Shown in pieces: positions 47,301 to 62,000 of a DNA stretch of 64,000 nt (positions within the stretch are counted from its first letter, which is position 1; each line of letters opens with the position of its first letter). A model generated the notes under the pieces. That model did not search any database. It worked only from the letters and a program-made list of their open reading frames with translations, and was not told the DNA's origin. The translations under genes and the position numbers were made by a program. Source of the DNA: Pseudarthrobacter sp. NBSH8 (GTDB taxonomy: Bacteria > Actinomycetota > Actinomycetes > Actinomycetales > Micrococcaceae); the NCBI RefSeq assembly GCF_014217545.1, contig NZ_CP043178.1, forward strand, positions 1,240,001 through 1,304,000. The letters are read 5' to 3'.

Positions 47301-47416
47301 ACAACCCGACGGGCATCTGGTATCACCTGACCAGCGGCATGGCCGCCGGCAACTGGCTCCGCTGCGACACGTCCAACCTGGGTTGTAACCCGCCGAACGG
47401 AATGCCCAACCGCTAG
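41306..47416 (+). CDS. Giant membrane-anchored Ig-like/fibronectin type III surface protein
   Basis: A 2036-residue envelope protein. A short basic N-terminus (FGLKKRHNKIVTG) and one helix (about 16-37) anchor it with the bulk outside. Residues about 40-375 are beta-rich with propeller-like features (VWVVSKSKNAVGRLNY; VWLVNQN). An acidic linker follows, then about ten Ig-like repeats of 95-100 residues (about 405-1470), most bearing NDxDPDGD-type loops (DNDSDPDGD, GNDTDPDGD). About five FN3 domains follow (1470-1945). The C-terminal 90 residues carry four cysteines (SCTEP, SSCVG, RCDT, LGCNP). The start is GTG. It heads the kinase/EssC-like operon, so a role as adhesin or secretion-linked wall protein is inferred. 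Codon use shifts near 41.9-42.4 kb. Confidence 0.88.
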   Translation: MTSLLGKFGLKKRHNKIVTGSAFAAAAAVLVAGAIIYPGFKTTEVELNDGGVWVVSKSKNAVGRLNYPSRVLDGAVTPASTTFDILQNAGDVFVDDETGSTLNQVSPANMRLGGDKQLPGSADVSFGASVISVTDAASGKVWAVSPTTVNGFDQEASEPVMVGSEGLVSAVGADDRIYSADPKSGAVTVTAVDANGEVVSSDSSTWGELRGAGDLQITVVGDKPVVLDAAAGKMFLPGGKRLQLDNARDAKLQQGGPASDFVAVSTQKALLKQPLDGSTAKTVAFDGEGVPAAPVQLAGCVHAAWSGANKYVRDCVNDADDKNVDVPKASASPSYVFRVNRDLVVLNDVNSGNVWLVNQNMQLVNNWDDVVPPKNESDEQDQESADNNTVNVLPDRTKPNRPPETKPDSLGVRPGRTTILSVLDNDSDPDGDVLTAAVGSSGPKAGTLESIYGGTAFQISVPADARPGAETFSYNAADGRGLSAGGQVTLNVVGPDENKAPVFKRGGDSTTMLVEQGKTVSQNILTDWVDPDGDDLVLLDAKADNDQDQVKVRRDGLLTFQDSGATAGKKNVQVTIWDGRATVTGKVVVNVQPPGALAPVVNADHVTAVVGQDLVIAPLKNDVDPNGGALRLAQVEANGPAELGPVTDGGTFTFRSTTPGPVYLTYIASNGPQSSQGLIRVDVESGKDAGDPVAVHDVALMPTGGSVLLDPLANDSDPSGGVLVLQSVKLPDNITASVSVIDHSVLRITDVLGTKDPFLFEYTMSSGKKSATGSVSVVPVPAPAVVEAPQPKPDEVNVRVNDVVTIPVLNNDTHPQGLELSVDPVLPQAVEAVDGKSFVSENTLRFIAGPQPKTVRAIYNAVDPQGQKSAAAVTIHILPLEGAENSRPQPQNLTARVVAAGTVRVPVPLDGIDPDGDSVQLTGVDSTPAMGTATVGSNFIDFTAAGDGAGTDTFRYKVVDRQGAVNTGTVTVGIAPRGETNQNPTPVDDEVKVRPGRQIAVDATGNDTDPDGDIIRILTDGIEADDALQATVSKTSGRIILTAPGAAGTVNVRYTIADDRDATAQATIRVVVDNEVPLKAPIARDDRVTSAQAMGKTAVDVPVLKNDEDPDGVGENLKLSTESLTARPGPDGTMIVDLTEQPQLIPYTVEDVDGQKSTAIIWAPGLGQQVPTLAKDEVIEVIAGQSVNVDLKEWVKVREGRTPRLTQTDRIKLIGSDGSNPVSGDGTALKYTAGADYVGPGSLSFEVTDGTAVDDPAGLKSTLSIRTKVLPDPNRNNPPELLGANVDVPKGESADLDLGKLTSDPDRDDLENMKYELVGGSPASFNARIDGKVLKTSVDGATATGTTGAVQVKAKDSRGLEATATFQLAVTASNRPKPIANDDIEPSAAAGKPVTVKVLANDSNPFPETALKIIAAGTETGSGNVDVSGDSVVVTPAPGFTGTMVVSYTVADKTEESSRQATARIRLTVKDKPLAPATPQAQSVGDRTALLNWTAPADRGSPITKYTVYGAGFRQECPANTCTLTGLVNNTKYLFEVTATNEFGESDRSPASAEVRPDVKPDTPLAPTLKFGDKQLAVNWVAPASKGSPVKSYDLEISPPPAGQNAQIQNLTAVSYVWKGLQNGVSYKVRVLARNDAKEPSEWSAYSAAEVPAGVPATPSAPTASQAGAVGAQSQLKVSWTAPNNNGDAISSYTLTTLHGGAVVATQPVPSGTTQNVTVDNSESNYTFTVSATNKAGTSGTSAPSAAIRAAGKPGQVSSGTVADTGTSGQLRVTFTPLTQAQRNGSTETEIQYSYNADGKSGSIAAGGGTIGGLTNGRDITVTIIATSTKNNVSGDAKAIGTGNPYGPPNAPNVDGKTSAKGDGDVHWTWNNPAVNGRPLDHFEISYEGGAWTSVGLANRYDRPAGGWDQVRTLKVRAVTAAVGPAGQANSRSGADPTPPPPTSWSITASPVRSCTEPRKGTDSYREGNPSSCVGEGKWLDAGAGSQSDRYQVWYKTSDNPTGIWYHLTSGMAAGNWLRCDTSNLGCNPPNGMPNR

Positions 47417-47496
47417 CGCAATACCGCCCGCACCAACACAGCGCCGGGGCTCCCGGCCCGACCAACCAGCACCAAATATTGAAAAGGATTCCCTTC

Positions 47497-48468
47497 ATGA
47501 CCATGACCACCGAGCAGGCCGAATGGTTTGCAGGCACTTTCGACAAGCTCGTCGCCAATGTGGGACAGGCGGTGCTCGGCAAGGACCACGTCATCCGGCT
47601 CACCTTCACCGCGATGCTGGCGGAGGGCCATGTGCTGTTCGAGGATGCTCCCGGCACTGGCAAGACCATGCTGGCCCGGGCCATGGCCGCCACGGTGCAG
47701 GGGTCCAATAACCGCATCCAGTTCACCCCCGACCTCCTCCCCTCGGACGTCACGGGCGTGACCATCTACGACCAGAAAACGCAGAAGTTCGAGTTCCACA
47801 AGGGACCGATCTTCAACAACATCGTCCTGGCCGACGAGATCAACCGTGCTTCGCCGAAGACCCAGTCGGCCCTGCTGGAGGTCATGGAGGAATCCCGGGT
47901 CACCGTGGACGGCGTCACCTACGAGGCCGGCCGGCCGTTTATGGTGATGGCCACCCAGAACCCGATCGAGCAGGCCGGTACGTACCGCCTGCCCGAAGCG
48001 CAGCTGGACCGCTTCCTGATCAAGACCTCCATCGGCTACCCGGACCACGCCTCCACGGTCCAGCTGCTCGGTGGCTCGAACCTGAAGGACCGCTCGAAAG
48101 AGATCTCCGCAGTGATCACCACCCAAGCCGTGGCGGACATGGCCGACCTCGCTGCCACCGTGCACGTGGACACGGCGGTCCTTGAATACATTTCCCGGCT
48201 CTGCGAGGAGACCCGCAGCGCGCCTGAGACCCGGCTGGGCGTTTCCGTTCGTGGCGCCATCGCCATGGTCCGCGCCGCCAAGGTATGGGCCGCGGGGCAG
48301 GGACGGAACTTCGTCCTGCCGGACGACATCAAGGAACTGGCGTCCGTTGTGTGGACGCACCGGTTTGTGATGGACGCGGAGGCTGAGTTCTCCGGCGCCA
48401 CCGCCGAGGCTGTCCTGGCGCGGGTTCTCTCTGACCTCGCGGCACCGCAGCAGCGCGCCGCCGTCTGA
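47497..48468 (+). CDS. MoxR family AAA+ ATPase
   Basis: A 323-residue MoxR ATPase, probably a chaperone for assembly of neighbouring membrane proteins. It has Walker A DAPGTGKTM (about 50-58), Walker B ADEINRASP (about 110), sensor 1 ATQNPIEQAGTY and the arginine-finger region LPEAQLDRF, followed by the lid domain. ATG at 47497 was chosen because GAAAAGGA stands about 8 bases upstream; a TTG-initiated form starting at 47479 would include that site in the coding region. MoxR, DUF58 and transglutaminase-like genes in this order are a recurrent bacterial set. Confidence 0.95.
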   Translation: MTMTTEQAEWFAGTFDKLVANVGQAVLGKDHVIRLTFTAMLAEGHVLFEDAPGTGKTMLARAMAATVQGSNNRIQFTPDLLPSDVTGVTIYDQKTQKFEFHKGPIFNNIVLADEINRASPKTQSALLEVMEESRVTVDGVTYEAGRPFMVMATQNPIEQAGTYRLPEAQLDRFLIKTSIGYPDHASTVQLLGGSNLKDRSKEISAVITTQAVADMADLAATVHVDTAVLEYISRLCEETRSAPETRLGVSVRGAIAMVRAAKVWAAGQGRNFVLPDDIKELASVVWTHRFVMDAEAEFSGATAEAVLARVLSDLAAPQQRAAV

Positions 48469-48522
48469 CGCTCCGACGGAGCTCCAGACCACCAACTGAC
48501 CAGCGCGAACAAAGGCACGTTT

Positions 48523-49854
48523 ATGTCCAGCAGCACTCCGTTGACCCGGCTTGCTGAACGTCTCCGGCAACCCTCCCACCGGAACGGCAGACCCACCAGG
48601 GTGCATCCCTCATCCGTCTGGGCCGAAGCCACCGGCACCGCCGCACTCGCCCTCACACCCGCATGGGAGAAGGTCCGCGGCCTGTGGCTGCGCTACGTGT
48701 GGCCGGTCCTGTCGGTGGTCAGTGTCCTGGGCTGGTCGGTTCTGGCCGCCTCCATCCTGCTGTGGATCGCCGGCCAGGCCTTCGGTTGGCAAGAGGCCAA
48801 AGCCGCGGCCATCGCGGCGTTTGTCCTTTTCCTGATTGCCATCGGGTTCATCCTGGGCCGGTCCTCGTACGGCGTGATCCTGGACCTTGCCCGGACCCGC
48901 GTAGCCGTGGGGGACAGTGCGGTCGGAAGCATCGCCGTCTCCAACACCTCGGCCCGGCCCCTGCTTCCGGCCGCCCTGGAACTGCCGGTGGGCAACGCCA
49001 CCGCGGTCTTCCACCTGCCCAGGATGAAGCCCGCGCAGGTGCACGAGGACCTTTTCACCATTCCGACCGCCCGCCGCGCCGTCATCGTGGTGGGCCCTGT
49101 CCGCTCCGTCCGGGCCGACCCCCTGCACCTCCTCCGCCGCCAGGTGCTGTGGACGGAACCGGAGGACCTGTTTGTGCACCCGAAGACGGTGGCCCTGGCC
49201 GGTTCCGCCGCCGGATTCATCCGCGACCTCGAGGGCATGCCCACCACTGACTTGTCCAGCGCGGACGTGTCCTTCCATGCCCTCCGTGACTACGTACCGG
49301 GCGATGACCGGCGGCACATCCACTGGAAGACCACCGCCCGGACCAACAAGCTGATGGTGCGCCAGTTCGAGGAGACCCGGCGCGCCCACCTGGCCATCTC
49401 GCTGTCCATCAACACGGACGAGTACGCGTCAGAGCAGGAATTCGAAATGGCCATCTCCGCGGCTGCCTCGATCGGCCGGCAGGCCATCCGGGAACAGCGC
49501 GAACTGGACGTCCTGACCCAAAACGGGCCGCTACGCTGCGAAACCGGACGGAACATGCTGGACGACATGACGCGGATCGCCGGGGCACCCATGCGCCGGA
49601 CCGCCGTCGACCTCGCCCGGACCCTGGCCGACACCGTCCCCAACGCGTCCGTAGTCTTTTTTGTTGTCGGCAGCAACGTGACACCCGCCCAGCTCCGTTC
49701 GGCCGCGGCCTCCGTGCCGCTCGGCGTCAGGAGTCTGGCCGTTCGCCTCCAAATCGGTGCCGCCCCGGGCCGCGCGAACATCGCGGACCTGACAGTGCTG
49801 ACGCTCGGCGACCTCGCTGACCTCGCCATCGTCCTCAGAAAGGCGGCCGCATGA
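48523..49854 (+). CDS. DUF58 domain membrane protein
   Basis: A 443-residue protein with two adjacent membrane helices (about 58-78 and 85-108) followed by a cytosolic or periplasmic beta-rich segment and the DUF58 signature YVPGDDRRHIHWKTTAR near residue 265. The rest has a von Willebrand A-like pattern (HLAISLSINTDEYASE), with MIDAS residues not clearly complete. DUF58 proteins partner MoxR ATPases. Its stop overlaps the ATG of the transglutaminase-like gene by 4 bp. Confidence 0.9.
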   Translation: MSSSTPLTRLAERLRQPSHRNGRPTRVHPSSVWAEATGTAALALTPAWEKVRGLWLRYVWPVLSVVSVLGWSVLAASILLWIAGQAFGWQEAKAAAIAAFVLFLIAIGFILGRSSYGVILDLARTRVAVGDSAVGSIAVSNTSARPLLPAALELPVGNATAVFHLPRMKPAQVHEDLFTIPTARRAVIVVGPVRSVRADPLHLLRRQVLWTEPEDLFVHPKTVALAGSAAGFIRDLEGMPTTDLSSADVSFHALRDYVPGDDRRHIHWKTTARTNKLMVRQFEETRRAHLAISLSINTDEYASEQEFEMAISAAASIGRQAIREQRELDVLTQNGPLRCETGRNMLDDMTRIAGAPMRRTAVDLARTLADTVPNASVVFFVVGSNVTPAQLRSAAASVPLGVRSLAVRLQIGAAPGRANIADLTVLTLGDLADLAIVLRKAAA

Positions 49855-52451
49855 GCTCCGCACCGGATCTCCGGCCGCGCCCGCAGCAGCGGCAGTACGA
49901 ATCATCGTTCGCCGACGGCCGTCCGGTCTGGCATTTTGTGCTCGACGCCGGCGCCCTCACCGTTCTGCTGGGGTTGGGCCTGTTGGGCTTCAGCCTCAGC
50001 TTCGGCGGTGACCCCTACTACTTGGTCTCGGGCTCCGGCGGTATCCTCCTGGGCCTCGGCATCGCCGCCGCCAACGCGCACCTTCGCCTGGGGTTACTGA
50101 TCACCACGGCCCTCGCGCTCGGCGCATACCTCGTGTTCGGCACGCTCCTCGCAGTCCCGGATGCGGCGATCGCAGGCTTTGTTCCCAGCCTTGACTCCTT
50201 GCGGACCCTGCTCCTGGGCGTTGTGTTCGCCTGGAAGGACATGCTCACGGTGGGCGTTCCGGTGGGGTCTGCCGGCGGCGTCCTGATCGTCCCGTTCCTG
50301 AGTTCGCTGCTTACTGCATTGGTGTCCGGCATCCTCACATGGCGCCTGAAATCCCCATACTGGCCGCTGCTTCCCGTTCTGGTGCTATTCATTACAGGTA
50401 TCGCGTTCAGCACCACCGCCGCCTTCCTCACGGTGGAACGCGGCATCGGGCTTACCGTCATAGGGATCGCCTGGGCCACGTTCCGCCGCGACGCGCTGCG
50501 GCGCAGCGACACCCGCAAAGTGTCGGTCAACCGTCCGCAGACCGATGCCGCCACGGCCCAGCGGGCCAAGCTCCGCCGGCTGGGCACCGCAGCCGCCGTG
50601 ATCGCCGCAAGCGTCGCCGTTACCGCGGTGGCGGCGCCCCTGGTCACCGCCGGCGGTGACCGGAAGGTCCTGCGCAACGTGGTGGTCCCGCCGTTCGACC
50701 CCAAGGACTACATCACACCCCTGGCCAGCTTCCGGACGTTCGTCAAGGACAAAAAAGACGACACCCTGTTTGTAGTCAAAGGACTGCCCAGGGAAGGCCG
50801 GGTCAGGCTGGGGGCCCTGGATGCCTTCAACGGAACCAACTACAACATGGACCCCCACGGCTCCGGCAGCTTCAGCAAAGTGGGGGACACCGAATCCATC
50901 AACACCCTGGCCGACACCTCGGGCATCGTCCCGTCGAATGACTACTCCATTGACATCACCATCGGGGACTACCAGGGCTATTTTGTCCCGGGCGGCCGGA
51001 AGACCACCGGCCTGAGCTTTGACCAGAGTGCTTCCGCGGCGGCGTCGGGTCTCTACTTCAACGCTGGCACCGACACCGCTGTGACCACACAGGGCCTTTC
51101 CAAAGGCGACACCTACAGCGTCCAGGTGTCCGATCCGGTGAAGCTCGAACACGGCCAGCTGACCCAGTACGACTTCGCGAAGATCACGATGCCGGACGCC
51201 GTCGAGGTCCCTCCGGTGGTGGGGTCACAGGCCAACGACCTCTCAGCCGATGCGTCCACCGCGATTGACCGGGTCCGCCAGATCGAGGCACATTTCCAAA
51301 AGACGGGTGCCTTCAGCAACGGCCTGGTCGCTGACGGCCAGCTGCCCAGTGTGTCCGGCCACAGCTCGTCGCGGATCAGGAACCTCCTGACCGCCAAGCA
51401 GATGCTCGGCGATGACGAGCAGTATGCCGTGTCCATGTCGCTGATGCTCCGCCACCTGGGGATCCCGTCACGGGTGGTCATGGGCTTCTACCCCGATCCG
51501 ACCAGCCCGGAGAACGGTGCCGGTGAGGTAAAGATCACCGGCAAGGACGTCCACGCCTGGGTTGAGGTGGCGTTCGACCGGGTGGGGTGGGTCAGCTTCG
51601 ACCCCACGCCTCCCAAGGACAATGTCCCCATCCCGCCGGACCCCGAAAACAAGTCCAAACCCAAGCCGCAGGTGCTGCAGCCGCCGCCCCCGCCGCAGGA
51701 ACCGGCCGACCTGCCGCCGGATTCCTCGCCGGACGCCCTGGACGCCGACGAAAAGAAGAATAATCCATGGCTCTTCTGGGGTGCCCTTCTGGGGGCCCTG
51801 GGCATTGCCCTTATCCCGCTGTCCATCCTGGCGCTGCCGCTGCTGCTGATCGCGCTCCTGAAATCACGGCGCCGGAAGGCCCGCCTCACCGAGGGGCACC
51901 CTGCACAGCGGGTGGGAGGCGGCTGGAACGAGATGGTGAGCCTCGCCACGGACATGGGTGCCGGCATCGACACGCGTGCAACCCGTCGTGAAAGCGCGGT
52001 GGTGCTCGCTGACTCGTTCCCGGCCACCGGTCAGACCACCACCATGCTCGCGCACCGTGCGGATGCCTCCATCTTCGGCGCCGGCCAGCCCAGCGAGGAG
52101 GAAGTTCAGGAATACTGGACCATCGTGGACGGCTCGCTGAAGGAGATGACCGGGACTGTAGGGTTCTGGCGGCGCCAGCAGGCCCGCTTCTCGCCCCGGT
52201 CGCTGCTGGCCGATGGCCGCAACGCCCTTAAGCTGCGTGGCGCCAGGCTTGGGATAGGTCCGCTGGTGCGTCCTTCCGGCCACGGTTCCACCGGATGGCG
52301 GTCCGCCACCGGTAGGGTGGAGACCGGTCCGGACACTGCCCAAAATCCGAATCCGGCAGTTCAGGAAAGCGGAGCCGGGACCGCGGCGTCTCAGCCTGAT
52401 GAGTCCACCGTTCTCCGGAACCCTGGCAGGAAGAACCCCACTGAATCATGA
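49851..52451 (+). CDS. Transglutaminase-like (TgpA-type) membrane protein with Asp in place of the catalytic Cys
   Basis: An 866-residue protein. Six or so helices occupy residues about 25-270, followed by an extracytoplasmic transglutaminase-core domain, a Pro-rich stretch, one more helix (WLFWGALLGALGIALIPLSI) with a basic stop (KSRRRK), and a cytosolic tail. The core has GDDEQYAVSMSLMLRHLGIP, where the family normally has Cys at the third position (GxCE), so the nucleophile is Asp. The His (DVHAWVEV) and Asp (FDPTPP) of the triad remain. The tail ends with DESTVLRNPG (Thr853), a putative phosphorylation/FHA site. It overlaps both neighbours by 4 bp. Confidence 0.88.
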   Translation: MSSAPDLRPRPQQRQYESSFADGRPVWHFVLDAGALTVLLGLGLLGFSLSFGGDPYYLVSGSGGILLGLGIAAANAHLRLGLLITTALALGAYLVFGTLLAVPDAAIAGFVPSLDSLRTLLLGVVFAWKDMLTVGVPVGSAGGVLIVPFLSSLLTALVSGILTWRLKSPYWPLLPVLVLFITGIAFSTTAAFLTVERGIGLTVIGIAWATFRRDALRRSDTRKVSVNRPQTDAATAQRAKLRRLGTAAAVIAASVAVTAVAAPLVTAGGDRKVLRNVVVPPFDPKDYITPLASFRTFVKDKKDDTLFVVKGLPREGRVRLGALDAFNGTNYNMDPHGSGSFSKVGDTESINTLADTSGIVPSNDYSIDITIGDYQGYFVPGGRKTTGLSFDQSASAAASGLYFNAGTDTAVTTQGLSKGDTYSVQVSDPVKLEHGQLTQYDFAKITMPDAVEVPPVVGSQANDLSADASTAIDRVRQIEAHFQKTGAFSNGLVADGQLPSVSGHSSSRIRNLLTAKQMLGDDEQYAVSMSLMLRHLGIPSRVVMGFYPDPTSPENGAGEVKITGKDVHAWVEVAFDRVGWVSFDPTPPKDNVPIPPDPENKSKPKPQVLQPPPPPQEPADLPPDSSPDALDADEKKNNPWLFWGALLGALGIALIPLSILALPLLLIALLKSRRRKARLTEGHPAQRVGGGWNEMVSLATDMGAGIDTRATRRESAVVLADSFPATGQTTTMLAHRADASIFGAGQPSEEEVQEYWTIVDGSLKEMTGTVGFWRRQQARFSPRSLLADGRNALKLRGARLGIGPLVRPSGHGSTGWRSATGRVETGPDTAQNPNPAVQESGAGTAASQPDESTVLRNPGRKNPTES

Positions 52452-53941
52452 TGAACGAGGCCGAGCGCTGCCAGCGGTGCCAGCAACTGATCCGGGGCGG
52501 CGCCACGTTCTGCACGGCATGCGGTGCTCCGCTGCCCAACAGGGCGGCACGCAGCGGACTCAACGTGGACCACGCGCAGCGGGCTGTGATGGACCGTTCG
52601 GCGGCGCACGCCAGCCAGAATCCCGGTACTATCCCGGTAGTACAAACGGCTCCAGGGGGAGGAACGGGAATGGCAGCCAATCTTGAGCTTGCTCCGGCCA
52701 CGGCGGGGAAACGGCTCGGCGCAGCAGTGCTCGACTGGCTGGCCCCCGTCGCGGTCCTGGTGGTGACTTTCGCCATCGGGTTCGCGGGAATCACCCGCAC
52801 GCAAAGCAGCGGCTTCGTCATCTATGACACCGGCTCGCTGGTCCTGTTCGGCAGCATCGGCCTGGGGCTGACGCTGGTGTATTTGGTGGTGCTGATGGGC
52901 ATGGAGGCCCGCTCCGGGAAGACCCTCGGCAACCATGTCATGGGCATCCGCAGCGCTGACAAGGATGGTTACGCCCCCGGCGGCGGAGGTGTGTTCCTGC
53001 GCGGCGTCATCACAGGCGCGGGCATCATCCTGGCGCTCCTGGCCGCACTGGCTGTCGTCATCTTCAAATGGTTCGATGTGGCCGTCTTCATCCTCGGCCC
53101 GCTGCTGTCGATCGGCGCCGTGTGGGCCGTACTTGTGGTGGTTTCCAACACGTGGGACCGCAACGGCAGGCTCCGCGGCTGGCATGACACCGCTGCCAAA
53201 ACACTGGTGTTCGACGTCAAGGACGGCCGCAACCCCATCACCTCCGGCGGCATCCAGGGACCGTACAGTTTCGCGCCCCTGGACCTCCCTCCTGTCCAGC
53301 ACGTCGCCTCGCCAGTCGCGGGGGCAGCAAAGCCGCCCCAGGTTGTGAACGCCCAGGCGCCCGTCGCCCAGCCACCGGTGCAGCCATGGCAGCCGCCGGC
53401 CCAACAACCCGTGCAGCCGTACGCGCCGCAGCCGTCCGCACAGCCGTCCTTCGCACCCCAGCCGTACGCGCCGCCGTCGTCCGCTCCTTTTCAGACGCCG
53501 CACGCGCAGACTGCCGCCCCGGCGGTTCCCACGACGGCCGCCCAGTCCCAACCCGATGACGACCTCGACCGTACGCAGATGCGCGGCGGCGCAATGTATG
53601 AGGCGCCCGTCGCCGTGCTGCGGATAAAGCTCGACGACGGCCGGGACTTCCAGCTCGACCGCAATGTCCTGGTGGGCAGGAACCCCGTGGGCCAGACAGG
53701 GGAGCAGCAGGCCCAGCTGCTGGCGATCAGTGATCCCGGCCGCTCGATCTCCAAGACACACCTCCACCTGCTAACCGACGGTGCCGGCATTTGGGTGACT
53801 GACCGGAACTCCACCAACGGCAGCGCCGTCACCACGCCGGACGGCCTGCGCACGCCGCTGCCGCCGGGTGTGCCCGCTTTTGTCAGCCCGGGATCCACTG
53901 TCCACTTTGGTGACCGTTCCTTCCACCTAGGACAGGCATGA
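52448..53941 (+). CDS. Zinc-ribbon/RDD membrane/FHA domain protein
   Basis: A 497-residue protein. A zinc ribbon (Cys8, Cys11, Cys22, Cys25) lies at the N-terminus. An RDD membrane domain spans about 85-235 (GKRLGAAVLDWLAP; SGKTLGNHVMGIR), then come a Pro/Gln/Ala-rich linker (about 270-365) and a C-terminal FHA domain (about 395-490) with an apparently intact phosphothreonine pocket (VLVGRNP, RSISKTHLHL, RNSTNGS). Before the FHA is the acidic motif DDLDRTQMRGG, with Thr376 as a putative phospho-site. It may recruit the operon's proteins to the membrane by phospho-dependent binding. ATGA overlaps join it to both neighbours. Confidence 0.88.
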   Translation: MMNEAERCQRCQQLIRGGATFCTACGAPLPNRAARSGLNVDHAQRAVMDRSAAHASQNPGTIPVVQTAPGGGTGMAANLELAPATAGKRLGAAVLDWLAPVAVLVVTFAIGFAGITRTQSSGFVIYDTGSLVLFGSIGLGLTLVYLVVLMGMEARSGKTLGNHVMGIRSADKDGYAPGGGGVFLRGVITGAGIILALLAALAVVIFKWFDVAVFILGPLLSIGAVWAVLVVVSNTWDRNGRLRGWHDTAAKTLVFDVKDGRNPITSGGIQGPYSFAPLDLPPVQHVASPVAGAAKPPQVVNAQAPVAQPPVQPWQPPAQQPVQPYAPQPSAQPSFAPQPYAPPSSAPFQTPHAQTAAPAVPTTAAQSQPDDDLDRTQMRGGAMYEAPVAVLRIKLDDGRDFQLDRNVLVGRNPVGQTGEQQAQLLAISDPGRSISKTHLHLLTDGAGIWVTDRNSTNGSAVTTPDGLRTPLPPGVPAFVSPGSTVHFGDRSFHLGQA

Positions 53942-54840
53942 ACTCCCAGCCCGCCAGTGACCCAGCTGACGCAGACCACGGAACCGGCCTCAGCCTGAGT
54001 TACGGCTACGGTACGGACCGTGGGCTGCGCCGCGAATTGAACGAGGATTCCTTCATCGCCTCCGACCCCGTCTTCGCCGTGGCAGACGGCATGGGCGGAC
54101 ACGAAGCCGGCGAGATTGCCAGCGGCATGTGCGTGCGCGCCCTCGCTGCCATGCCGCAGCTCGCCACCGGGGAGCGGAGTGTCACGGCGGCAGTGCTCCA
54201 GCAATACCTGCTCCGCGCCGACAGCTCCATCCGGGAAGTGACCGGCGCCCGGGCCGGGACCACGCTCACCGGTGCCGTTGTGGTGGAACAGATGGGCATG
54301 CCGTACTGGCTGGTCATGAACATCGGGGATTCCCGCACGTACCGGCTGAGCCAAGGGCACTTTGAACAAGTCAGCGTGGACCATTCGGAGGTCCAGGAGC
54401 TCGTGGATGCCGGTGAAATCACGCCGGAGCAGGCCACCGTCCATCCCCGCCGCCACGTGGTGACGAGGGCGCTGGGCACCGGGGACGAGATCGAAGCTGA
54501 TTACTGGCTCCTGCCCGTTGAGGAGGGCGACCGGATCATGGTCTGCTCCGACGGACTCAATGGCGAACTCACGGACGAGCACATCTCCCGGATCCTGGGC
54601 ACCGTGGGACATCCGCAAGACGCCGTGGATGCCCTGATCCAGGCTGCGCTCCGCAATGGCGGAAGGGACAACGTCACCGTCATTGTGGTGGACGCCAGGA
54701 ACGTGATGAACGACGGCGGCGTCGCGATCACTGCGCCCCGCCCCGCCGCTGATGCTGCGGAGGAAGTCACACTGCCCCGGGGACAGATTGTTGACGCCAG
54801 CCGGCCGGCCGGCCAGGACGACGGAAGGGGGGAACGCTGA
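53938..54840 (+). CDS. PP2C family Ser/Thr protein phosphatase
   Basis: A 300-residue PstP/Stp1-type phosphatase that would reverse the action of the Ser/Thr kinase encoded downstream. All metal-binding motifs are present: NEDSF, VADGMGGHEAG, GTTLTGAVV, NIGDSRTYRL, CSDGLNGEL and GGRDNVTVIVVD. There is no membrane helix, unlike PstP. The C-terminal tail after residue 255 is disordered-like and contains EEVTLPRG (Thr278), which fits the Thr-X-X-Arg pattern of its neighbours. Its ATG overlaps the preceding stop by 4 bp. Confidence 0.93.
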   Translation: MNSQPASDPADADHGTGLSLSYGYGTDRGLRRELNEDSFIASDPVFAVADGMGGHEAGEIASGMCVRALAAMPQLATGERSVTAAVLQQYLLRADSSIREVTGARAGTTLTGAVVVEQMGMPYWLVMNIGDSRTYRLSQGHFEQVSVDHSEVQELVDAGEITPEQATVHPRRHVVTRALGTGDEIEADYWLLPVEEGDRIMVCSDGLNGELTDEHISRILGTVGHPQDAVDALIQAALRNGGRDNVTVIVVDARNVMNDGGVAITAPRPAADAAEEVTLPRGQIVDASRPAGQDDGRGER

Positions 54841-54841
54841 C

Positions 54842-56548
54842 ATGGCAACAGCAACATACAGTGCGGGCACGTGGCTGGGCGTTGTCCGGGCCAACACAGT
54901 TGTCCTCCTGGGGCCCGGGACCCCGCCCGCCCTGGTCCAGTCCCTGTGGGAGCTGCTGGAGCATGCCCCGGAAGTCCACGAAGTACTTCACGCCGTCACC
55001 AGCAGTTTCGGCGTTTCGCTGGCGCAGATACCGTCGTTCGGGATAGTCGATTCGGGCGACGCGCTCCGGGTCTTCCTTCGCGGCGACCTGGACCTGACCG
55101 TGCAGTTGCCCGGCGGCTCCCTGGACCTGAACGGGCGGGACGTCACCACCTGGACGGAGCGCCGGCTGGACACCCCCGCGTGGTACCGCATCACTGTAGC
55201 CGGGGACGGCCAGCCCGGGGACGTGTTGCCGCTCAGCGAAGGAGTGGTCCTGCTGGAGTCGCTGACAGTGTCGCTCACTGGAAGTCCGGTGGATGAAGCC
55301 ATGGCCCCGTCCGGCCTGCCCGCTGAGGACGGGGCACCCACCCTCGCCGTCGCCGTCGTCGTTGGAGCGGATGCTGAACCTGGGTCTGAACCAGCGCCCG
55401 TACATGGCCGGGAGGTCTCGACCGAAACCGTGATGGGGCTCATGGACGATGACGCCAACTTTGCTGCCGAAGCGCCGGAGCCCGGGCCGGACCAGGAGCC
55501 CGCTCCGGAGACCCCCGCCCATCCTGATCAGGTCCCGGCCCACGAAATGACCGGCAGCTATGACCACCTCTGGGAACGGACTGTTGTCCGCCGCATCGAG
55601 GACGCGGCGGTCCGGGACGAGCCCGAGGAAGATCACGGTGCCCCTGCGGCACCAGCCGACGCGGTGGTGGCACCGGTCGATGCGGCAGAGGCGAATGCAC
55701 CAGGGCAGTTGGAGGCAGCGGCCAGCCTGGCCCCTGCACAGCCGGCCAGCGAACCGGCAGGTCCACCCGTCACGCCGGCAGCAGCCGCGCCGCCTGCAGC
55801 CGCAGCCGCCGCCCGGATGATCGGCGGGCTCATCGACTCGGTCCCGTGGCGGACCGGCGGGAGCACACCTGCGACCCAGGCACCGCTGCCGTCCAAGCTG
55901 CCGGAGTTGAATCTGCCGCCGTCGAATCTGTCCCCTTCGAATCCGCCCACGGCGGACGTGCCGGCAGAAGTCCAAGCGGCAGACCCGGCTGCCTTGGACG
56001 GGGACCACGACGGCCACACGATCATGAAGAGCGACCTCACCGGAATGGCCGCGCATCCGGCCCCCGTTCCCGGGCCGGATTCCGCCGCCGGCCCGCTGGT
56101 GCTGGCCCGGGTCTGCGACCAGGGACACGCCAACCCGCCCACCCATGCGCGGTGCACTGCCTGCGGTTCGCCGTTGCCCGCCGATGCCGTCCAGGTGGCC
56201 CGGCCACGACTGGGCCGGATGCGGGTCTCGACGGGTGCACTGGTGGAACTTGACCAGTCGCTGGTCATTGGGCGGCAGCCGTCCGTTTCCCGGGTGCACG
56301 GTGGTGTTATGCCGAGGCTGGTCCAGGTGGCCAGCCCCAGCGGAGACATCTCGCGCTCCCACGTGGAAGTGCGGCTGGAGGGCTGGCACGTGATGCTCTG
56401 CGATCTTAAGGCCACAAACGGCACGGTCCTGGTCCGCGATGGCCAGCAGCCCCGCCGCCTGGCCCAGAACGAGATGGCTATCCTGCTCGACGGCGACGTC
56501 GCCGAATTGGGTGACGACATCTCATTGCGTTTTGAGGAGATTCCTTGA
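54842..56548 (+). CDS. FHA domain protein with zinc ribbon and long disordered linker
   Basis: A 568-residue protein. The first 150 residues form a compact alpha/beta domain without a recognised family (GTWLGVVRANTVVLLGPG). Residues about 175-415 are Ala/Pro/Glu-rich and disordered-like. A zinc ribbon follows (Cys425, Cys438, Cys441, with His429 a possible fourth ligand), then an FHA domain (about 470-560) with its pocket residues present (VIGRQPSVSR, ISRSHVEV, KATNGT). Two Thr-X-X-Arg/Lys motifs lie in the linker: ERTVVRRI (Thr247) and DGHTIMKSD (Thr393). ATG at 54842 lies 1 base after the PP2C stop, after AGGGGGGAAC. Likely a phospho-dependent adaptor. Confidence 0.85.
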   Translation: MATATYSAGTWLGVVRANTVVLLGPGTPPALVQSLWELLEHAPEVHEVLHAVTSSFGVSLAQIPSFGIVDSGDALRVFLRGDLDLTVQLPGGSLDLNGRDVTTWTERRLDTPAWYRITVAGDGQPGDVLPLSEGVVLLESLTVSLTGSPVDEAMAPSGLPAEDGAPTLAVAVVVGADAEPGSEPAPVHGREVSTETVMGLMDDDANFAAEAPEPGPDQEPAPETPAHPDQVPAHEMTGSYDHLWERTVVRRIEDAAVRDEPEEDHGAPAAPADAVVAPVDAAEANAPGQLEAAASLAPAQPASEPAGPPVTPAAAAPPAAAAAARMIGGLIDSVPWRTGGSTPATQAPLPSKLPELNLPPSNLSPSNPPTADVPAEVQAADPAALDGDHDGHTIMKSDLTGMAAHPAPVPGPDSAAGPLVLARVCDQGHANPPTHARCTACGSPLPADAVQVARPRLGRMRVSTGALVELDQSLVIGRQPSVSRVHGGVMPRLVQVASPSGDISRSHVEVRLEGWHVMLCDLKATNGTVLVRDGQQPRRLAQNEMAILLDGDVAELGDDISLRFEEIP

Positions 56549-58299
56549 GTTCCAAACGGCCGGTTGCGCCGCCGCCCCCCATCCCGGGGTTTACGTACAT
56601 CAGCCTGCTCGGCTCCGGCGGGTTCTCAGACGTCTACCTCTACGAACAGGACCGGCCGCGCCGGAAAGTGGCCGTCAAGGTCCTTCTGTCGGACCTGAAG
56701 ACCGAAGGTGCCCGGCGCAGGTTTGAGTCCGAGGCCAACCTGATGGCCCAGCTCTCCTCGCACCCGTACATCGTGACCATCTTCGAGGCGGAGGTCACCG
56801 AGGCAGGCCACTCCTACCTGGCCATGGAGTACTGCTCGAGGCCCAGCCTGGACGTCCGGTACCGCCGTCAGCGCTTCAGCGTTGATGAGGTTCTGGCCGT
56901 CGGCATCCAGGTGGCCTCCGCCGTCGAGACCGCGCACCGGGCCGGCATCGCCCACCGGGACATCAAGCCCGCGAACATCCTCGTGACCGACTACAACCGG
57001 CCGGCCCTGACGGACTTTGGGATCTCGGGCACCCTGGGCGGCGACGCCGACGACGACGCCGGGATGTCCATTCCGTGGTCCCCGCCGGAACAGTTCGCGG
57101 ATGGCCCCGTGGACGGCGTGATGGTGGATGTCTGGGCACTGGGCGCCACGCTGTACACACTGCTGGCCGGCAGGTCGCCGTTCGTGATGCCCGGTACTGA
57201 TAACTCCCAGCGCGAACTGATCTCGCGGATCACCAGCGCGGCATTGCCGCGCCTGGGCCGGGCCGACGTTCCAGAGTCACTGGAGCGGGCACTGTCCACG
57301 GCAATGGCCAAGTCTGCGGCGTCCCGGTACTCCTCAGCCCACGCGTTTGCCCTCGCCCTGCAGCGGATCCAGGCCGAACTGAACCTTTCGGTCACGCCCT
57401 TCGAGGTATTCGAAGAGCCGCAACTGGATGAAAACCACCCCGATGATGGCTTCGAGGAAACCCGCGTCCGGAGCATCGCGGCCATCGATCCGGAGCGGAC
57501 CGGCAGCGCCCCTACTTTCCCGGCACGTACCCGGCCCCAGGTTCCGGCCAACCTCTTTGCCGGCCAGCTGGCCGGCCAACAGGAGGGCCAGCGGGTGGGC
57601 GGCAGCCCGGACGGTAGCAGCCCCGCGGGCGAGTGGGCCCAGGCCACGATGCTCCGCGGCAGTGCACCGGCGGCGGGATACGGGTCCGTGCCGGACGCAA
57701 CTGTCCAGCGCCCAAGGCTCCTTCCTGCACATTCCGGACAGCAGTCCGGACAGCAGGCCGGCCTGTCGGCCGCGCCCGGCCACCGGGCGGCGGGGGCCGA
57801 GCCCGAGATCGACGCGACGATCAGCCGTCCCGCCCCGGTCGCCGAAGCCGCCCCCGAGGCGGCGCCCGACCACGGCAAGCGCAACGTGTGGCTCGCCGCG
57901 GCGGGCGGAACGCTGCTGGTCCTCGCCATCGTTGTCGGAATCGTGCTGGCGTCCTCAGCTCCGGCACCGAAGGTCGAAGAGCCCGGCCAAGTCAGCAAAC
58001 CCCCGGCGGATGCCCTCGACAATGGGACAGTCCCCGACGTCGCGGACCTGGCGGGGACCGTGGACGCTACCGGCAAGGCGACGTTCAGGTGGACTAATCC
58101 GCAGCCGAAGTCGGGCGACGCCTATAAGTGGCGGGTCTACGCGTTGGGCAACAACGGCGAGTACCAGTCCGCTGCCGAGCCAACCGCCCAGGTTGCGTTG
58201 AATCCGACGGAACCCACCTGTATCCAGGTGATGATCGTCAGGAGCGACGGCGCGTTCTCGCCTTTGGAAGAAGACTCGATCGCCTGCATCCGCAAGTGA
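56545..58299 (+). CDS. Transmembrane Ser/Thr protein kinase (PknB-like)
   Basis: A 584-residue Hanks-type kinase. The catalytic domain (about 18-280) has the glycine loop LGSGGFSDVYLY, the lysine in VAVKVLL, HRDIKPANIL and DFGIS, followed by SIPWSPPEQF in place of the usual GTPxYMAPE. A juxtamembrane region of about 165 residues carries four Thr-X-X-Arg sites (Thr306, Thr368, Thr386, Thr425). A helix at about 450-470 leads to an external domain of about 115 residues with FN3-like spacing (FRWTNPQP, YKWRVYALG) and no PASTA repeats. The start is TTG, preceded by GAGGAG, and overlaps the FHA gene's stop. Confidence 0.93.
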   Translation: MSSKRPVAPPPPIPGFTYISLLGSGGFSDVYLYEQDRPRRKVAVKVLLSDLKTEGARRRFESEANLMAQLSSHPYIVTIFEAEVTEAGHSYLAMEYCSRPSLDVRYRRQRFSVDEVLAVGIQVASAVETAHRAGIAHRDIKPANILVTDYNRPALTDFGISGTLGGDADDDAGMSIPWSPPEQFADGPVDGVMVDVWALGATLYTLLAGRSPFVMPGTDNSQRELISRITSAALPRLGRADVPESLERALSTAMAKSAASRYSSAHAFALALQRIQAELNLSVTPFEVFEEPQLDENHPDDGFEETRVRSIAAIDPERTGSAPTFPARTRPQVPANLFAGQLAGQQEGQRVGGSPDGSSPAGEWAQATMLRGSAPAAGYGSVPDATVQRPRLLPAHSGQQSGQQAGLSAAPGHRAAGAEPEIDATISRPAPVAEAAPEAAPDHGKRNVWLAAAGGTLLVLAIVVGIVLASSAPAPKVEEPGQVSKPPADALDNGTVPDVADLAGTVDATGKATFRWTNPQPKSGDAYKWRVYALGNNGEYQSAAEPTAQVALNPTEPTCIQVMIVRSDGAFSPLEEDSIACIRK

Positions 58300-58360: not shown

Positions 58361-59065
58361 ATGGGGGATCTAGCAATAGATTTCTGTGGTGAATGGTACG
58401 AACCGTCCGATGAGGAAATCTTCAACATCGGCCGGGAAGGCGATCTTGAAGTGGACGACAACCCGTACCTTCACCGCCAGTTCCTGCAGGTGGCCCGCTA
58501 CGACGGGATCTGGTGGCTGAGCAATGTGGGCGGGATGCTTTCCGCCACGGTTGCCGACGGTTCCGGCGGGATGCAGGCCTGGCTGTCGCCGGGTGCGCGG
58601 ATCCCGCTGGTGTTCAGCCACACAAACGTCATTTTCACCGCCGGTCCCACCACATATGAGTTCGCCGTCCACCTCAAGACGCCGTCGTTCCGCCAGGAAT
58701 CACGGGAGGACGACAGCAACGGCGACACCACAATCGGCCCCGTGGTCTTCACTGACTCCCAGCGGGCCCTCATTGTGGCTCTCGCCGAACCCATGCTCCG
58801 GCGGGAAGGGACCGGGTTCAGCGCCATCCCGTCCTCGGCTGCAGCGGCAAAGACCCTGGGCTGGGCACTCACCCGGTTCAACCGGAAGCTGGATAATGTC
58901 TGCGACAAACTTGACCGCGTGGGCGTGGTGGGCCTGCGCGGCGGCGGCGGGAAACTGGCCACCAACCGGCGCGCGAGGCTCGTCGAGCACGCCGTCACGT
59001 CCCACCTGGTCACGCCCGACGATTTGTACTTACTGGAAAAGATGAGGGGCGTGGACGAAGGATGA
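58361..59065 (+). CDS. FHA-like/winged-helix protein, unknown function
   Basis: A 234-residue cytoplasmic protein that I cannot place in a named family. The N-terminal 110 residues follow an FHA pattern (FNIGREGDLEVDD, YLHRQFLQV, WWLSNVGGML): the pocket Arg, His and Asn appear present, but the usual Ser before the histidine is replaced. Residues about 130-234 look like a winged helix (FTDSQRALIVALAEPML; LGWALTRFNRKLDNVCDKL; GVVGLRGGGGKLATNRRARL). It could be a transcription factor responding to the kinase, or an adaptor. AGGAGG precedes the ATG by 8 bases. Its stop overlaps the EssC-like gene's ATG by 4 bp. Confidence 0.78.
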   Translation: MGDLAIDFCGEWYEPSDEEIFNIGREGDLEVDDNPYLHRQFLQVARYDGIWWLSNVGGMLSATVADGSGGMQAWLSPGARIPLVFSHTNVIFTAGPTTYEFAVHLKTPSFRQESREDDSNGDTTIGPVVFTDSQRALIVALAEPMLRREGTGFSAIPSSAAAAKTLGWALTRFNRKLDNVCDKLDRVGVVGLRGGGGKLATNRRARLVEHAVTSHLVTPDDLYLLEKMRGVDEG

Positions 59066-62000
59066 GGATCCGGCTGACACTCCGCCGGGACCCGGCGGAA
59101 ACCAAGGACCTGGCCGTGACCGTCGACGGCCTGGCCACGGTGGCGGATATCGCCACCCAGCTTTGGGTCGCGGACCCCGACCGCAAGGGATCGCCGGCAC
59201 CGGAGAACCTTTCGCTTCGCATCGACGAGGCATTTGTGGGCGGCGGCATGCGCGGCAGCGTCCTGACCCGCGCGGACAACCTCCTGGAATCGGGCCTGCG
59301 CCCGGGCTCCGTGGTGTCCCTGACCGAGGTCAGCGAACTTTTCAACGCCCCCGGCGCCCACCGCGGACCCGCCGCAGCCACCTTGCGGATCCTCTCCGGG
59401 CCCGACGTCGGCCAGGAGTTTTCGCTGCCTTCCGGCACCAGCTACATCGGCCGGGACCGGGACGTGGACATCCGGCTCACGGACCCGCTGACCTCCAAAC
59501 GCCACGCGCGCATCACCGTGGGCGAGAGCGTGGAGATCGTGGACACGAACTCCGCCAACGGCCTCCTGATGGACGGCCTGCCGGTCACTCGGGCCACCCT
59601 GAACTCATCCGATACGGTGACGCTGGGGGAGACCACCGTCACGGTGGTGCCGCTGGGCCGCAACCAGGCGGCAGCACCGACGTCGCCCCTTGTCGATTTC
59701 AACCGCTCCCCGCGGGTGGTTCCCCGCTTTGAGGCGCCCAAGCGCGTGCCGCCGGCCGGACCCAAACGTCCGGACCACCAGCCGTTCCCGTACATCATGC
59801 TGATGGCGCCGCTGCTCATGGGCGGCATCATGTTCGCGGTCACGCGAAACATCCTGTCGGTGGTGTTCATGATGATGATGCCGCTGTTCATTGTGGGTCA
59901 TTATGTTGACCACAAGATGCAGACCAGGCGCCAACAGAAGGAACAGCTCAAACAGTTCCGGGAGTCCATGGCTGCGTTCCGCCAGGACATCACCGAACTG
60001 CAGCACGTCGAACGCGCAGTCCGCCTGCAGGAAGCGCCTTCCGTCAGTGACACCGTGGATTCCATCTACAAACTCGGTCCGCTGCTGTGGACCCACCGCC
60101 CCGAGCACCCCGGTTTCCTGGGCCTGCGGTTCGGGCTCGGCACCGGTACATCGCGCATCCTGTTCGAGGAACCCAACAGCAACGACACCGAAGCTGAGTT
60201 CATGCGCGAGATCCAGGACTGCCTGAAGCAGTTCAGGGACATCGAGGGTGTCCCCGTGGTCTCCCAGCTGCGCACCGCCGGGTCCTTCGGCGTGGCCGGG
60301 GCCCGGGGCCTGGTGGACGACGTTGCCCGCGGCATGGTCCTGCAGTTTGTGGGGCTGCATTCGCCCGCGGAGGCCGTGGTGACAGCCATTACGTCGGCGC
60401 AGTCCCGGCAGCGCTGGGACTGGCTGCAGTGGCTGCCCCACGTGGGCTCCGGCCACAGCCCCCTCAACGGCGACCACCTCGCTGCCGGTTCAGCCAGCGG
60501 CTCCTCCCTCGTGGCCAGGCTCGAGGACCTGCTCGACGCACGCGAAGCCATGGCCAAGCGCTCCACCCCCGAACACCGCGGATCTGTGGACCCGGCCAAG
60601 GACGAAATCCCGGCGCCGGTGCTGCCGGCGGTCCTGGTCATCGTCGAGGACGACGCTCCGGTGGACCGGGGCAGGCTGACCCGCCTCGCCGAGCGAGGGC
60701 CGGATTCCGGCGTCCACGTCATGTGGGTGGCCACCGACATCCAGGCGCTCCCTGCCGCCTGCCGGGACTTTATGGTGGTGGACGGCGAAAACGGCACCAC
60801 CACCGGGCAGGTGCGGCTGGGACGGCACACGTACCCCGTGAGCTGCGAAAGCCTCGACGCCGAAGTGGCCGCGCAGCTGGCCCGGATGCTGGCGCCCGTG
60901 GTGGACGTTGGCAAGCCTGTCAGCGACGACTCCGACCTGCCGCGTGCGGTGTCCTACGCCACCCTGATCGGCAAGGACTTCCTGGACAACCCGCAGGCCG
61001 TGGCGGAGCGCTGGGTCGAGAACAATTCAGTCCATGCCTCCGCGGTTCCCAACCGGAAGGACAACGGGACCCTCCGGGCGCTGGTGGGTTCCAAGGGGAT
61101 AGAGCCGCTCTACCTGGACCTGAAGAACGAGGGCCCGCACGCGCTGGTCGGCGGCACCACCGGCGCCGGCAAATCAGAGTTCCTGCAGTCCTGGGTCATG
61201 GGCATGGCCGCCGCGTACAGCCCGGACCGCGTGAGCTTCCTGTTTGTGGACTACAAGGGCGGGGCGGCGTTCGCCGATTGCCTCAGCCTGCCCCACACCG
61301 TGGGCCTGGTCACCGACCTGTCCCAGCACCTGGTCCGCCGTGCCCTGACCTCCCTCCGTGCCGAGCTGCACTATCGCGAGCACCTGCTGAACCGCAAGAA
61401 GGCCAAGGACCTGCTCGGGCTCCAGCGCGAAGCCGACCCGGAAGCACCGCCCTACCTCATTATCGCTGTGGACGAATTTGCGGCGCTGGCCACCGAGGTC
61501 CCCGAATTTGTGGACGGCGTAGTGGATGTTGCTGCCCGTGGCCGGTCCCTGGGCCTGCACCTGATCCTGGCCACGCAGCGTCCCGCCGGTGTCATCAAGG
61601 ACAGCCTGCGCGCCAACACCAACCTCCGGGTGGCCCTGCGCATGGCGGATGAGGATGACGCCACCGACATCCTCGGCGTGCCTGATGCGGCATACTTCGA
61701 CCCGTCCATCCCGGGCCGCGGCGCCGCCAAGACCGGGCCCGGCCGCATCCAGGGGTTCCAGACCGGCTATGCCGGCGGCTGGACCACGGAGAAGCCCCAG
61801 CGTCCGCAGATCGACATCGTGGAAATGGCCTTCGGGTCAGGGCCCAGCTGGGAGGCTCCTGCGCCGGAAAAACCCGTCAAGGAAGCCCCGGCCGGCCCCA
61901 ACGACATCGCCAGGATGACCACCAACATCGTCCGGGCAGCGGAATCGCTGGCCATCAGGCCGCCGCGCAAACCGTGGCTGGACGAGCTGGCCAAGACGTA

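Follow-up and report, generated by a model that had tools for sequence, protein, structure and literature searches.

An operon that encodes a Ser/Thr kinase, a PP2C phosphatase and several proteins with FHA domains raises the question of whether these proteins mark, read and erase sites on one another. Such an operon lies within a stretch of 64,000 nucleotides of Pseudarthrobacter sp. NBSH8 (the window; C1:1240001-1304000 of a genome of 4.06 Mb). It is a tight run of ten same-strand genes (41306-63507, +; positions given without a contig are those of the window, + strand), several of whose stop and start codons overlap. In order, they encode an Ig/Fn3 surface protein, a MoxR ATPase, a DUF58 protein, a transglutaminase-like membrane protein, an RDD-FHA protein, a PP2C phosphatase, an FHA protein with a zinc-ribbon-like cluster (ZnR-FHA), a Ser/Thr kinase, the product of orf9 and an FtsK-type ATPase with an FHA domain (the last named by eye).

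The initial annotation of this DNA pointed to nine Thr-x-x-Arg/Lys motifs in the tails of five of these proteins and proposed a local phospho-code, in which the kinase would mark its own tail and its neighbours, the FHA domains of the operon would bind the marks and the PP2C would erase them. This proposal stands in part: the conservation of sites, their restriction to Thr and their excess speak for it, while two of the sites (Thr853 of the transglutaminase-like protein and Thr368 of the kinase), the unequal suitability of the FHA domains as readers and the spread of the ZnR-FHA and RDD-FHA sites speak against it. Judging from sequence comparisons, we consider it somewhat probable that [D/E]-x(0-4)-Thr-x-(V/L/I/M/P)-Arg/Lys motifs serve as phosphothreonine (pThr) docking sites in disordered tails, chiefly those of the kinase and the phosphatase, and that they are read mainly by ZnR-FHA.

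Position and density of the motifs

All nine motifs were recovered at the residues and in the frames that had been annotated, each with an acidic residue within the five positions before Thr (4+2+1+1+1 sites). Four belong to the kinase (56545-58299), the proposed writer, whose kinase domain (PF00069) spans 56596..57333: Thr306 (FEETRVR, 57460..57462), the first such site after the domain, Thr368 (AQATMLR, 57646..57648), Thr386 (DATVQR, 57700..57702) and Thr425 (DATISR, 57817..57819). ZnR-FHA (54842-56548) has Thr247 (HLWERTVVR, 55580..55582) and Thr393 (DHDGHTIMK, 56018..56020), RDD-FHA (52448-53941) has Thr376 between its RDD and FHA domains (DRTQMR, 53573..53575), and the transglutaminase-like protein has Thr853 (DESTVLR, 52407..52409). 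The PP2C phosphatase (53938..54840), the proposed eraser, carries Thr278 (EEVTLPR, 54769..54771) and also a site that had been overlooked, Thr265 (AITAPR, 54730..54732), with its closest acid at -6 in the window. Simple hydropathy agrees with the annotated placement of the sites in cytosolic segments: the kinase motifs (306-425) follow the kinase domain and precede the sole hydrophobic segment (446-477), Thr376 is flanked by the RDD segments and the FHA domain, Thr853 stands beyond the last hydrophobic segment of its protein (639-673), and neither PP2C nor ZnR-FHA has a hydrophobic segment.

Taken alone, the window holds 9 sites where about 1.1 are expected (the sum of the shuffle means of five linkers). 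Linker by linker, the excess is clear in that of the kinase, with 4 sites against 0.27 expected, a number that none of 2000 shuffles reached; it is weak in the ZnR-FHA linker (p 0.028) and not significant in the other three (p 0.10, 0.15 and 0.28). The motifs do not occur at the same rate in unrelated disordered regions: with an acid required within five positions before Thr, the operon linkers contain 9 sites in 708 aa, as against 25 in disorder-like segments sampled from the same genome (14,269 aa) and 181 in whole sampled open reading frames (ORFs; 87,646 aa), these background ORFs being called mechanically, so that spurious ones may be included.

Conservation within the Micrococcaceae

Of 149 family genomes, 69 (the source genome among them) gave strong matches to the kinase (E < 1e-60). 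Regions were fetched from the other 68 genomes and 64 of them were aligned with the window, L104-L107 (kinase 40-43% identical) being excluded; the 64 include genes that are truncated at a contig end or whose assignment is doubtful (e.g. RDD in L082, L091, L092 and L095). A set of named organisms, consisting of the best 80 loci obtained through an orf9 alignment, is nearly all Arthrobacter/Pseudarthrobacter-like, overlaps the set of 64 and is not independent of it.

Kinase Thr306 is the most constant of the sites, with both Thr and Arg+3 in 65/65 rows, no other residue at the Thr position, and its pattern in 79/80 named loci. Near-invariance extends to Thr393 of ZnR-FHA (Thr in 63/65, Arg/Lys+3 in 58/65; DHDGxT[VIL]x[RK] in 74/79 named loci), to Thr376 of RDD-FHA (Thr in 60/64, Arg+3 in 47/64; 64/78 named loci) and to Thr278 of PP2C (Thr in 56/64, Ser in 4, Arg/Lys+3 in 47/64; a TLPR type in 73/78 named loci). 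The overlooked Thr265 is kept similarly (Thr in 57/64, Arg+3 in 52/64). Conservation is partial for Thr247 of ZnR-FHA (Thr in 44/65, Arg/Lys+3 in 29/65; strict pattern in 19/64 family loci, HL[WF] site in 61/79 named loci) and for kinase Thr386 (Thr in 45/65 rows) and Thr425 (Thr in 45/65, Ser in 6), the alignment of this kinase region being loose. Kinase Thr368 is not conserved at its position in the family alignment. Thr853 of the transglutaminase-like protein is not conserved either (Thr in 2/60 rows, a T[VIL]xR form in 9/76 named loci) and lies, as far as alignments tell, probably outside the code. The expectation that these threonines would be kept inside variable linkers thus holds for most sites and not for Thr368 and Thr853, and the motif is present in four proteins of Micrococcaceae operons, namely the kinase, the PP2C, RDD-FHA and ZnR-FHA.

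The linkers themselves are variable, with a mean per-column identity to the window of 0.24-0.28. Few columns exceed 85%, those of the motif Thr among them; the others are Pro-rich columns, IxxxPW in ZnR-FHA and TPFEV after the kinase domain. Every kinase has some sites (one to seven, mean 2.9), and Ser replaces Thr in 0 or 1 named loci per pattern.

Two further conserved segments were observed in these linkers. Kinase Thr284, in the TPFEV segment just past the kinase domain (57394-57408), is Thr in 65/65 rows and lacks Arg+3; it is a candidate site or a structural cap. LIDSVPW (ZnR-FHA 330-336, 55829-55849) is conserved inside a variable linker as a second, unexplained linear motif.

Shuffling of the family linkers gave the same preference for Thr and Arg/Lys+3; since the alignment rows are related, the figures describe over-representation and not independent trials. 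The pattern acid-T-x-x-[RK] occurs 189 times in kinase linkers, about fivefold the shuffled number (35.3 +/- 5.6), 95 times in PP2C tails (15.9 shuffled), 61 times in RDD linkers (12.2) and 90 times in ZnR-FHA linkers (27.6), with little or no excess in transglutaminase linkers (17 vs 12.2). In kinase linkers, the Ser form is depleted (9 vs 29.5), an acid at +3 is rarer than in shuffles (29 vs 67.0) and a basic residue at +2 occurs about as often (31 vs 34.2). The upstream acid is needed: without it, T..[RK] is not enriched in kinase (19 vs 27.5), ZnR-FHA (15 vs 17.6) or RDD linkers (12 vs 19.7), and there is a slight excess in PP2C (9 vs 5.6). In a count made without a preset motif, no feature near linker Thr was more strongly favoured than Arg/Lys+3 (log2 1.66 and 1.50), which was depleted around Ser (-0.90 and -0.65). 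The restriction to Thr rather than Ser is borne out, as is the excess over background.

FHA domains as candidate readers

Rad53 FHA1 offers a precedent for selection at +3, through its Arg83, which we take to lie two residues before the conserved Ser. FHA domains hold the phosphate by Arg, Ser and Asn, and Arg83, in the loop of the conserved Ser, is reported to give the Asp+3 preference of Rad53 FHA1 (PMC4037201, in the part available to us); high specificity for pThr has also been ascribed to FHA domains (PMC3146460, likewise in part). In ZnR-FHA (FHA domain 56273..56512; PF00498 match at 496-557), which has Arg478, Ser504 and Asn526, the corresponding loop reads Asp502-Ile-Ser504-Arg-Ser-His and places an acid at the position of Arg83. 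We propose this domain as the main reader and Asp502 (56345..56347), two residues before the phosphate-binding Ser, as a contact of Arg+3. The Arg, Ser and Asn are present in 124/124 homologues, and the residue two before Ser (Ser-2) is Asp in 104 and Glu in 2 of these; it is Asp in 79/79 named loci.

The acid at Ser-2 and the motif occur together. A usable same-strand kinase was available for 109 of the 124 FHA loci, and a kinase core motif (T[RKNSTV][LVIFA][RK] after an acid, at most 75 residues from the end of the kinase domain; a pattern chosen after seeing the data) is present in 99/101 loci with the acid and in 1/8 without it, L104-L106 being tallied as outside the Micrococcaceae in this count despite their family label. 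Both loci with Glu in place of Asp keep the core motif. Kinase tails of the acid class hold 258 sites against 53.7 expected, compared with 3 against 3.1 in the non-acid class, and the PP2C tail motif is found in 94/102 loci with the acid and in 0/6 without it. A charge at Ser-2 complementary to that at +3 fits the kinase and PP2C sites, but the DHDGxT sites of other families mostly lack Arg/Lys+3.

The three FHA domains do not qualify equally as readers. RDD-FHA and the FtsK-type ATPase retain the Arg, Ser and Asn of the pThr site, and their Ser-2 residues are Ser 80, Thr 8 and Ala 1 (89 matches read) and Leu 18, Met 18 and Gln 2 (38 read), respectively; only ZnR-FHA has a Ser-2 acid that fits Arg+3, and the FtsK-FHA gene was found in 29/64 family loci. 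The kinase site is kept in 34/35 family loci without FtsK (some loci being cut by contig ends).

Motif sites outside the Micrococcaceae

ZnR-FHA homologues are present in 144/297 genomes of the order and in 19/296 genomes drawn over the phylum. In 40 regions of other families, acid-T-[RK]-x-[RK] occurs in 27/35 kinases (in 23 as the strict TR[VLI]R) and an acid-T-x-P-[RK] tail in 26/34 PP2C proteins, so that these two sites span the order. The ZnR-FHA form [HDL]L[WF]xxT[VIL]x[RK] is found in 11/40. A uniform code over all sites is not upheld, as the ZnR-FHA and RDD-FHA sites lose the pattern outside the Micrococcaceae.

The DHDGxT site has a wider distribution than its Arg/Lys+3. In the 64 family loci its +3 residue is Arg in 39, Lys in 13 and another in 5, the pattern being absent from 7. 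Outside these loci DHDGxT was found, with a slightly loose pattern, at 32 sites in 30 loci, loci of the acid-less FHA class included. Because DHDGxT is kept there mostly without Arg+3, Thr393 may serve another or an older role. By these alignments, DHDGxT[VI] (56003-56020) is an older conserved Thr motif, whose role the Arg+3 code leaves unexplained. The comparisons thus suggest a pThr-x-x-Arg type in kinase and phosphatase tails throughout the order, with Thr393 as an older site that carries Arg/Lys+3 in the Micrococcaceae.

Alternative explanations

Several observations weigh against a pThr docking code read by ZnR-FHA. A basic residue at +4 is also raised, in kinase linkers (52 vs 34.9) and in PP2C tails (36 vs 15.6), and so is T..[RK] with an upstream basic residue (kinase 30 vs 20.2, ZnR-FHA 21 vs 9.1, RDD 25 vs 8.7, PP2C 18 vs 6.4), these sites overlapping with the upstream-acid ones. 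The RDD-FHA Thr376 pattern was found in 0/21 RDD-FHA proteins of other families, and +3 at the 32 outside DHDGxT sites is Ser 9, Val 7, Ala 5, Gly 3 and Arg 1. In a kinase tree (67 of the 109 kinases, with every third Micrococcaceae row kept) a single branch (100/98) separates the acid and non-acid classes, and the co-occurrence of acid and motif therefore amounts to one joint evolutionary change, which the Fisher p calculated for the contrast does not take into account. Rules for pThr+3 have been called controversial (PMC4037201, as far as the text was available). Glu at Ser-2 is also found in one of five other FHA domains of the genome, in a 1354-aa open frame (L003, G000:C1:2738632), and AlphaFold gave no usable structure for the C-terminal part of ZnR-FHA (predicted local distance difference test, pLDDT, 45.6). 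As a separate observation, targets of the L003 FHA domain might follow the same +3 rule.

One alternative is that the motif is a kinase substrate consensus only, phosphorylation having a direct effect and +3 not being read by any FHA domain; we regard this as unlikely, yet deserving of serious weight. The upstream acids match the known preference of actinobacterial kinases, and this explanation could use the change of the kinase on the same branch as the Ser-2 acid. PknA-dependent sites of Mycobacterium tuberculosis, as given in the accessible part of PMC7164672, share an acidic lead (-1 and -3 to -6) and a Pro at +2 like that of the PP2C sites, but their published pattern has a hydrophobic +3 and a basic +4, not Arg+3. 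The avoidance of Ser cannot separate a substrate consensus from a docking site, because pThr is reported as the commonest site in mycobacteria (PMC6554272, seen in part), which suits the former as well. A substrate consensus alone leaves the association between the motif and the Ser-2 acid of ZnR-FHA unexplained.

There is likewise a modest chance that the reading, at least at certain sites (Thr393 for one), falls mainly to another FHA domain, that of FtsK or RDD-FHA. The two domains keep the Arg/Ser/Asn of the pThr site, a reader of the DHDGxT sites that lack Arg+3 in other families would have to prefer something else at +3, and the authors who described T7SSd suggest that the FHA domains of TsdC may link to the kinase TsdD (PMC11217815, in the portion available). 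Against this stand the non-acidic Ser-2 residues of RDD-FHA and FtsK-FHA, the frequent absence of FtsK and the lack of the Ser/Asn pair in the orf9 product. An FHA domain of FtsK as a needed reader was rejected on account of that absence.

It is improbable that acidic-Thr-hydrophobic-Arg is a non-phosphorylated linear motif that binds a partner constitutively, its Thr being kept for another reason. Kinase TRVR is so invariant that a structural role near the kinase domain is possible, and DHDGxT without Arg+3 resembles a separate motif; however, Ser versions number 0 or 1 per pattern, only Thr is found at position 306 in 65 rows, the other copies shift within their linkers, and the kinase, phosphatase and FHA genes share an operon.

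Chance in low-complexity sequence, to which the non-significant excess in three of the five window linkers and the weak one in a fourth would point, is very improbable given conservation and enrichment over 64 family regions and the kinase and PP2C sites in 40 regions of other families; it is ruled out for the conserved sites and remains likely for Thr853 and Thr368. Equal standing of all nine sites was rejected too, as these two are not conserved. A general habit of actinobacterial kinase tails was also discarded: in this genome, the cluster of the PknA/PknB-PstP-FHA type lacks the motif, with scattered matches only, and the Ser-2 residues of the two FHA domains encoded there are Gly and Tyr.

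Gene content of the operon and related systems

The genes for the Ig/Fn3 surface protein, MoxR ATPase, DUF58 protein and transglutaminase-like membrane protein occupy 41306..52451. The FHA domain of RDD-FHA (53669..53911) scored 20.6 bits, against a cut-off of 20.7, and was above the cut-off in another search. Between Thr393 and the FHA domain of ZnR-FHA lies a zinc-ribbon-like Cys/His cluster (C425, H429, C438 and C441; 56114..56164), each residue of which is kept in 65/65 rows; the cluster is predicted to bind zinc. The orf9 product (58361..59065; 234 aa, strongly conserved) gave no Pfam match. Its model (pLDDT 79.5) resembles known FHA domains, among them Rv1747 FHA-1 (E 7e-5, ~105 residues), the usual FHA Ser and Asn are absent by eye, and helices form its C-terminal end; it thus models as a fourth FHA fold of the operon, one that probably does not bind phosphate. 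The helical part is possibly a winged helix. The FtsK/SpoIIIE-type ATPase gene (59062-63507; FHA domain 59446..59628) looks, from its presence in the 29 family loci (some loci being cut by contig ends), like an optional module. A DNA-ligase-like gene, named by eye, follows 3' of the operon.

Other layouts were seen among the relatives. In L104-L106 and several of L129-L183, ZnR-FHA and the kinase directly precede Ig/Fn3-MoxR-DUF58, nearer to the bifidobacterial PFNA order, and the kinase adjoins and precedes Fn3, as in PFNA, in L104-L106, L129-L131, L133, L178-L180 and L183. In L162 and L168-L172 (family label f15), the FHA protein is long and carries Gln at Ser-2, and the stretch fetched yielded no operon kinase.

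The operon itself is already of a known kind, being PFNA/T7SSd-like. The PFNA cluster of bifidobacteria is given, in the accessible part of PMC8430577, as pkb2-fn3-aaa-duf58-tgm-prpC-hypothetical-fha; the same paper reports that the MoxR protein encoded in the cluster is a substrate of its kinase, Pkb2. The fn3, aaa (MoxR-type), duf58 and tgm genes are contiguous and in the same order here (41306-52451), and the kinase as well as prpC and fha (the latter two present in some bifidobacteria only) have counterparts in the kinase, PP2C and FHA genes. The likeness is one of gene content and order: the PFNA kinase stands directly before fn3, whereas here it is downstream, near the operon end (56545-58299), and RDD-FHA, ZnR-FHA, orf9 and FtsK are extra. 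Neither a motif nor a docking code for FHA domains is described in that part of PMC8430577.

T7SSd (TsdA, C, D, H and I) comprises a membrane FtsK-type ATPase with an N-terminal FHA domain, a Ser/Thr kinase and a long Ig-domain protein (PMC11217815, as far as available), all of which it has in common with the operon; the likeness, including that of an FHA-bearing FtsK/EssC-type ATPase encoded with a Ser/Thr kinase, is one of domain content. Its authors raise Thr phosphorylation as a possible control, and no Thr motif is described in the portion available (PMC11217815). The operon cannot be classed as a T7SSd because no WXG100 (TsdA) gene was found at the locus, the two matches of the genome lying far from the window at C1:769620 and C1:3987695; FtsK, moreover, is optional in relatives (29/64 family loci).

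In the GarA/OdhI switches and in FhaA-MviN, an FHA protein is controlled through Thr phosphorylation by an actinobacterial kinase. The present motif differs from these in being acid-Thr-x-x-Arg and in being spread over several proteins, phosphatase and kinase included, binding in cis being only putative. Thr376 and Thr393 stand N-terminal to the FHA domains of their own chains, an order that may allow a GarA/OdhI-like closed form of RDD-FHA and ZnR-FHA. As in Rad53 FHA1 (PMC4037201, in part), a charged residue in the loop of the conserved Ser is proposed to decide +3, with the charges predicted to be swapped, so that the domain has Asp/Glu and the peptide Arg/Lys. In the Agrobacterium T6SS, the kinase PpkA, phosphorylated TssL (pThr14) and an Fha reader act in one secretion system (PMC3953482, according to the part available); there, a single site in one protein is involved, and the machine is a different one.

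Proposed mechanism and significance

From these patterns we infer phosphorylation of the sites, their binding, the pairing of an FHA domain with them and an output. The membrane kinase would phosphorylate its own juxtamembrane Thr306 and further sites of its tail, as well as the PP2C sites and, in the Micrococcaceae, those of RDD-FHA and ZnR-FHA. The FHA domain of ZnR-FHA would then bind the marks, with Arg478, Ser504 and Asn526 directed to the phosphate and Asp502 to Arg+3, and the outcome would be a membrane-tethered, multivalent assembly of kinase, adaptor and phosphatase, in which several marks per kinase tail would make recruitment multivalent and graded. The PP2C, recruited through its own tail, would dismantle the assembly and so be eraser and client at once. 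The assembly may control the envelope machine of MoxR, DUF58, transglutaminase and Ig/Fn3 proteins encoded upstream; the reported phosphorylation by Pkb2 of the MoxR protein in its own cluster (PMC8430577, in part) points to the MoxR-DUF58-transglutaminase part as a candidate output.

With some doubt, we further propose that this may be an operon-private pThr code of reversed polarity, having one FHA reader whose Ser-2 acid mirrors the Rad53 pairing of Arg83 with Asp+3, motif and reader residue having appeared or disappeared jointly in a single lineage and, in the Micrococcaceae, the older DHDGxT having been drawn in by a gain of Arg/Lys+3. New in this work are the motif and its occurrence in kinase, phosphatase and adaptors alike, together with the FHA residue that matches it and the PP2C site that had been overlooked. 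To our knowledge, FHA recognition of pThr-x-x-Arg (a +3 class) is known from no paper, and a search of open-licence literature, with most subscription papers outside its scope, found no description of it.

FHA domains are numerous in actinobacteria, and we know of few with known targets. A motif that the eye can pick out and that kinase and phosphatase tails of several families have kept, together with a candidate specificity residue, makes the question of FHA targets a matter of peptide binding. If the proposal is true, binding of pThr-x-x-Arg would add a +3 class to FHA recognition, and operons of the MoxR-DUF58-transglutaminase-Ig/Fn3 type would gain a concrete control circuit.

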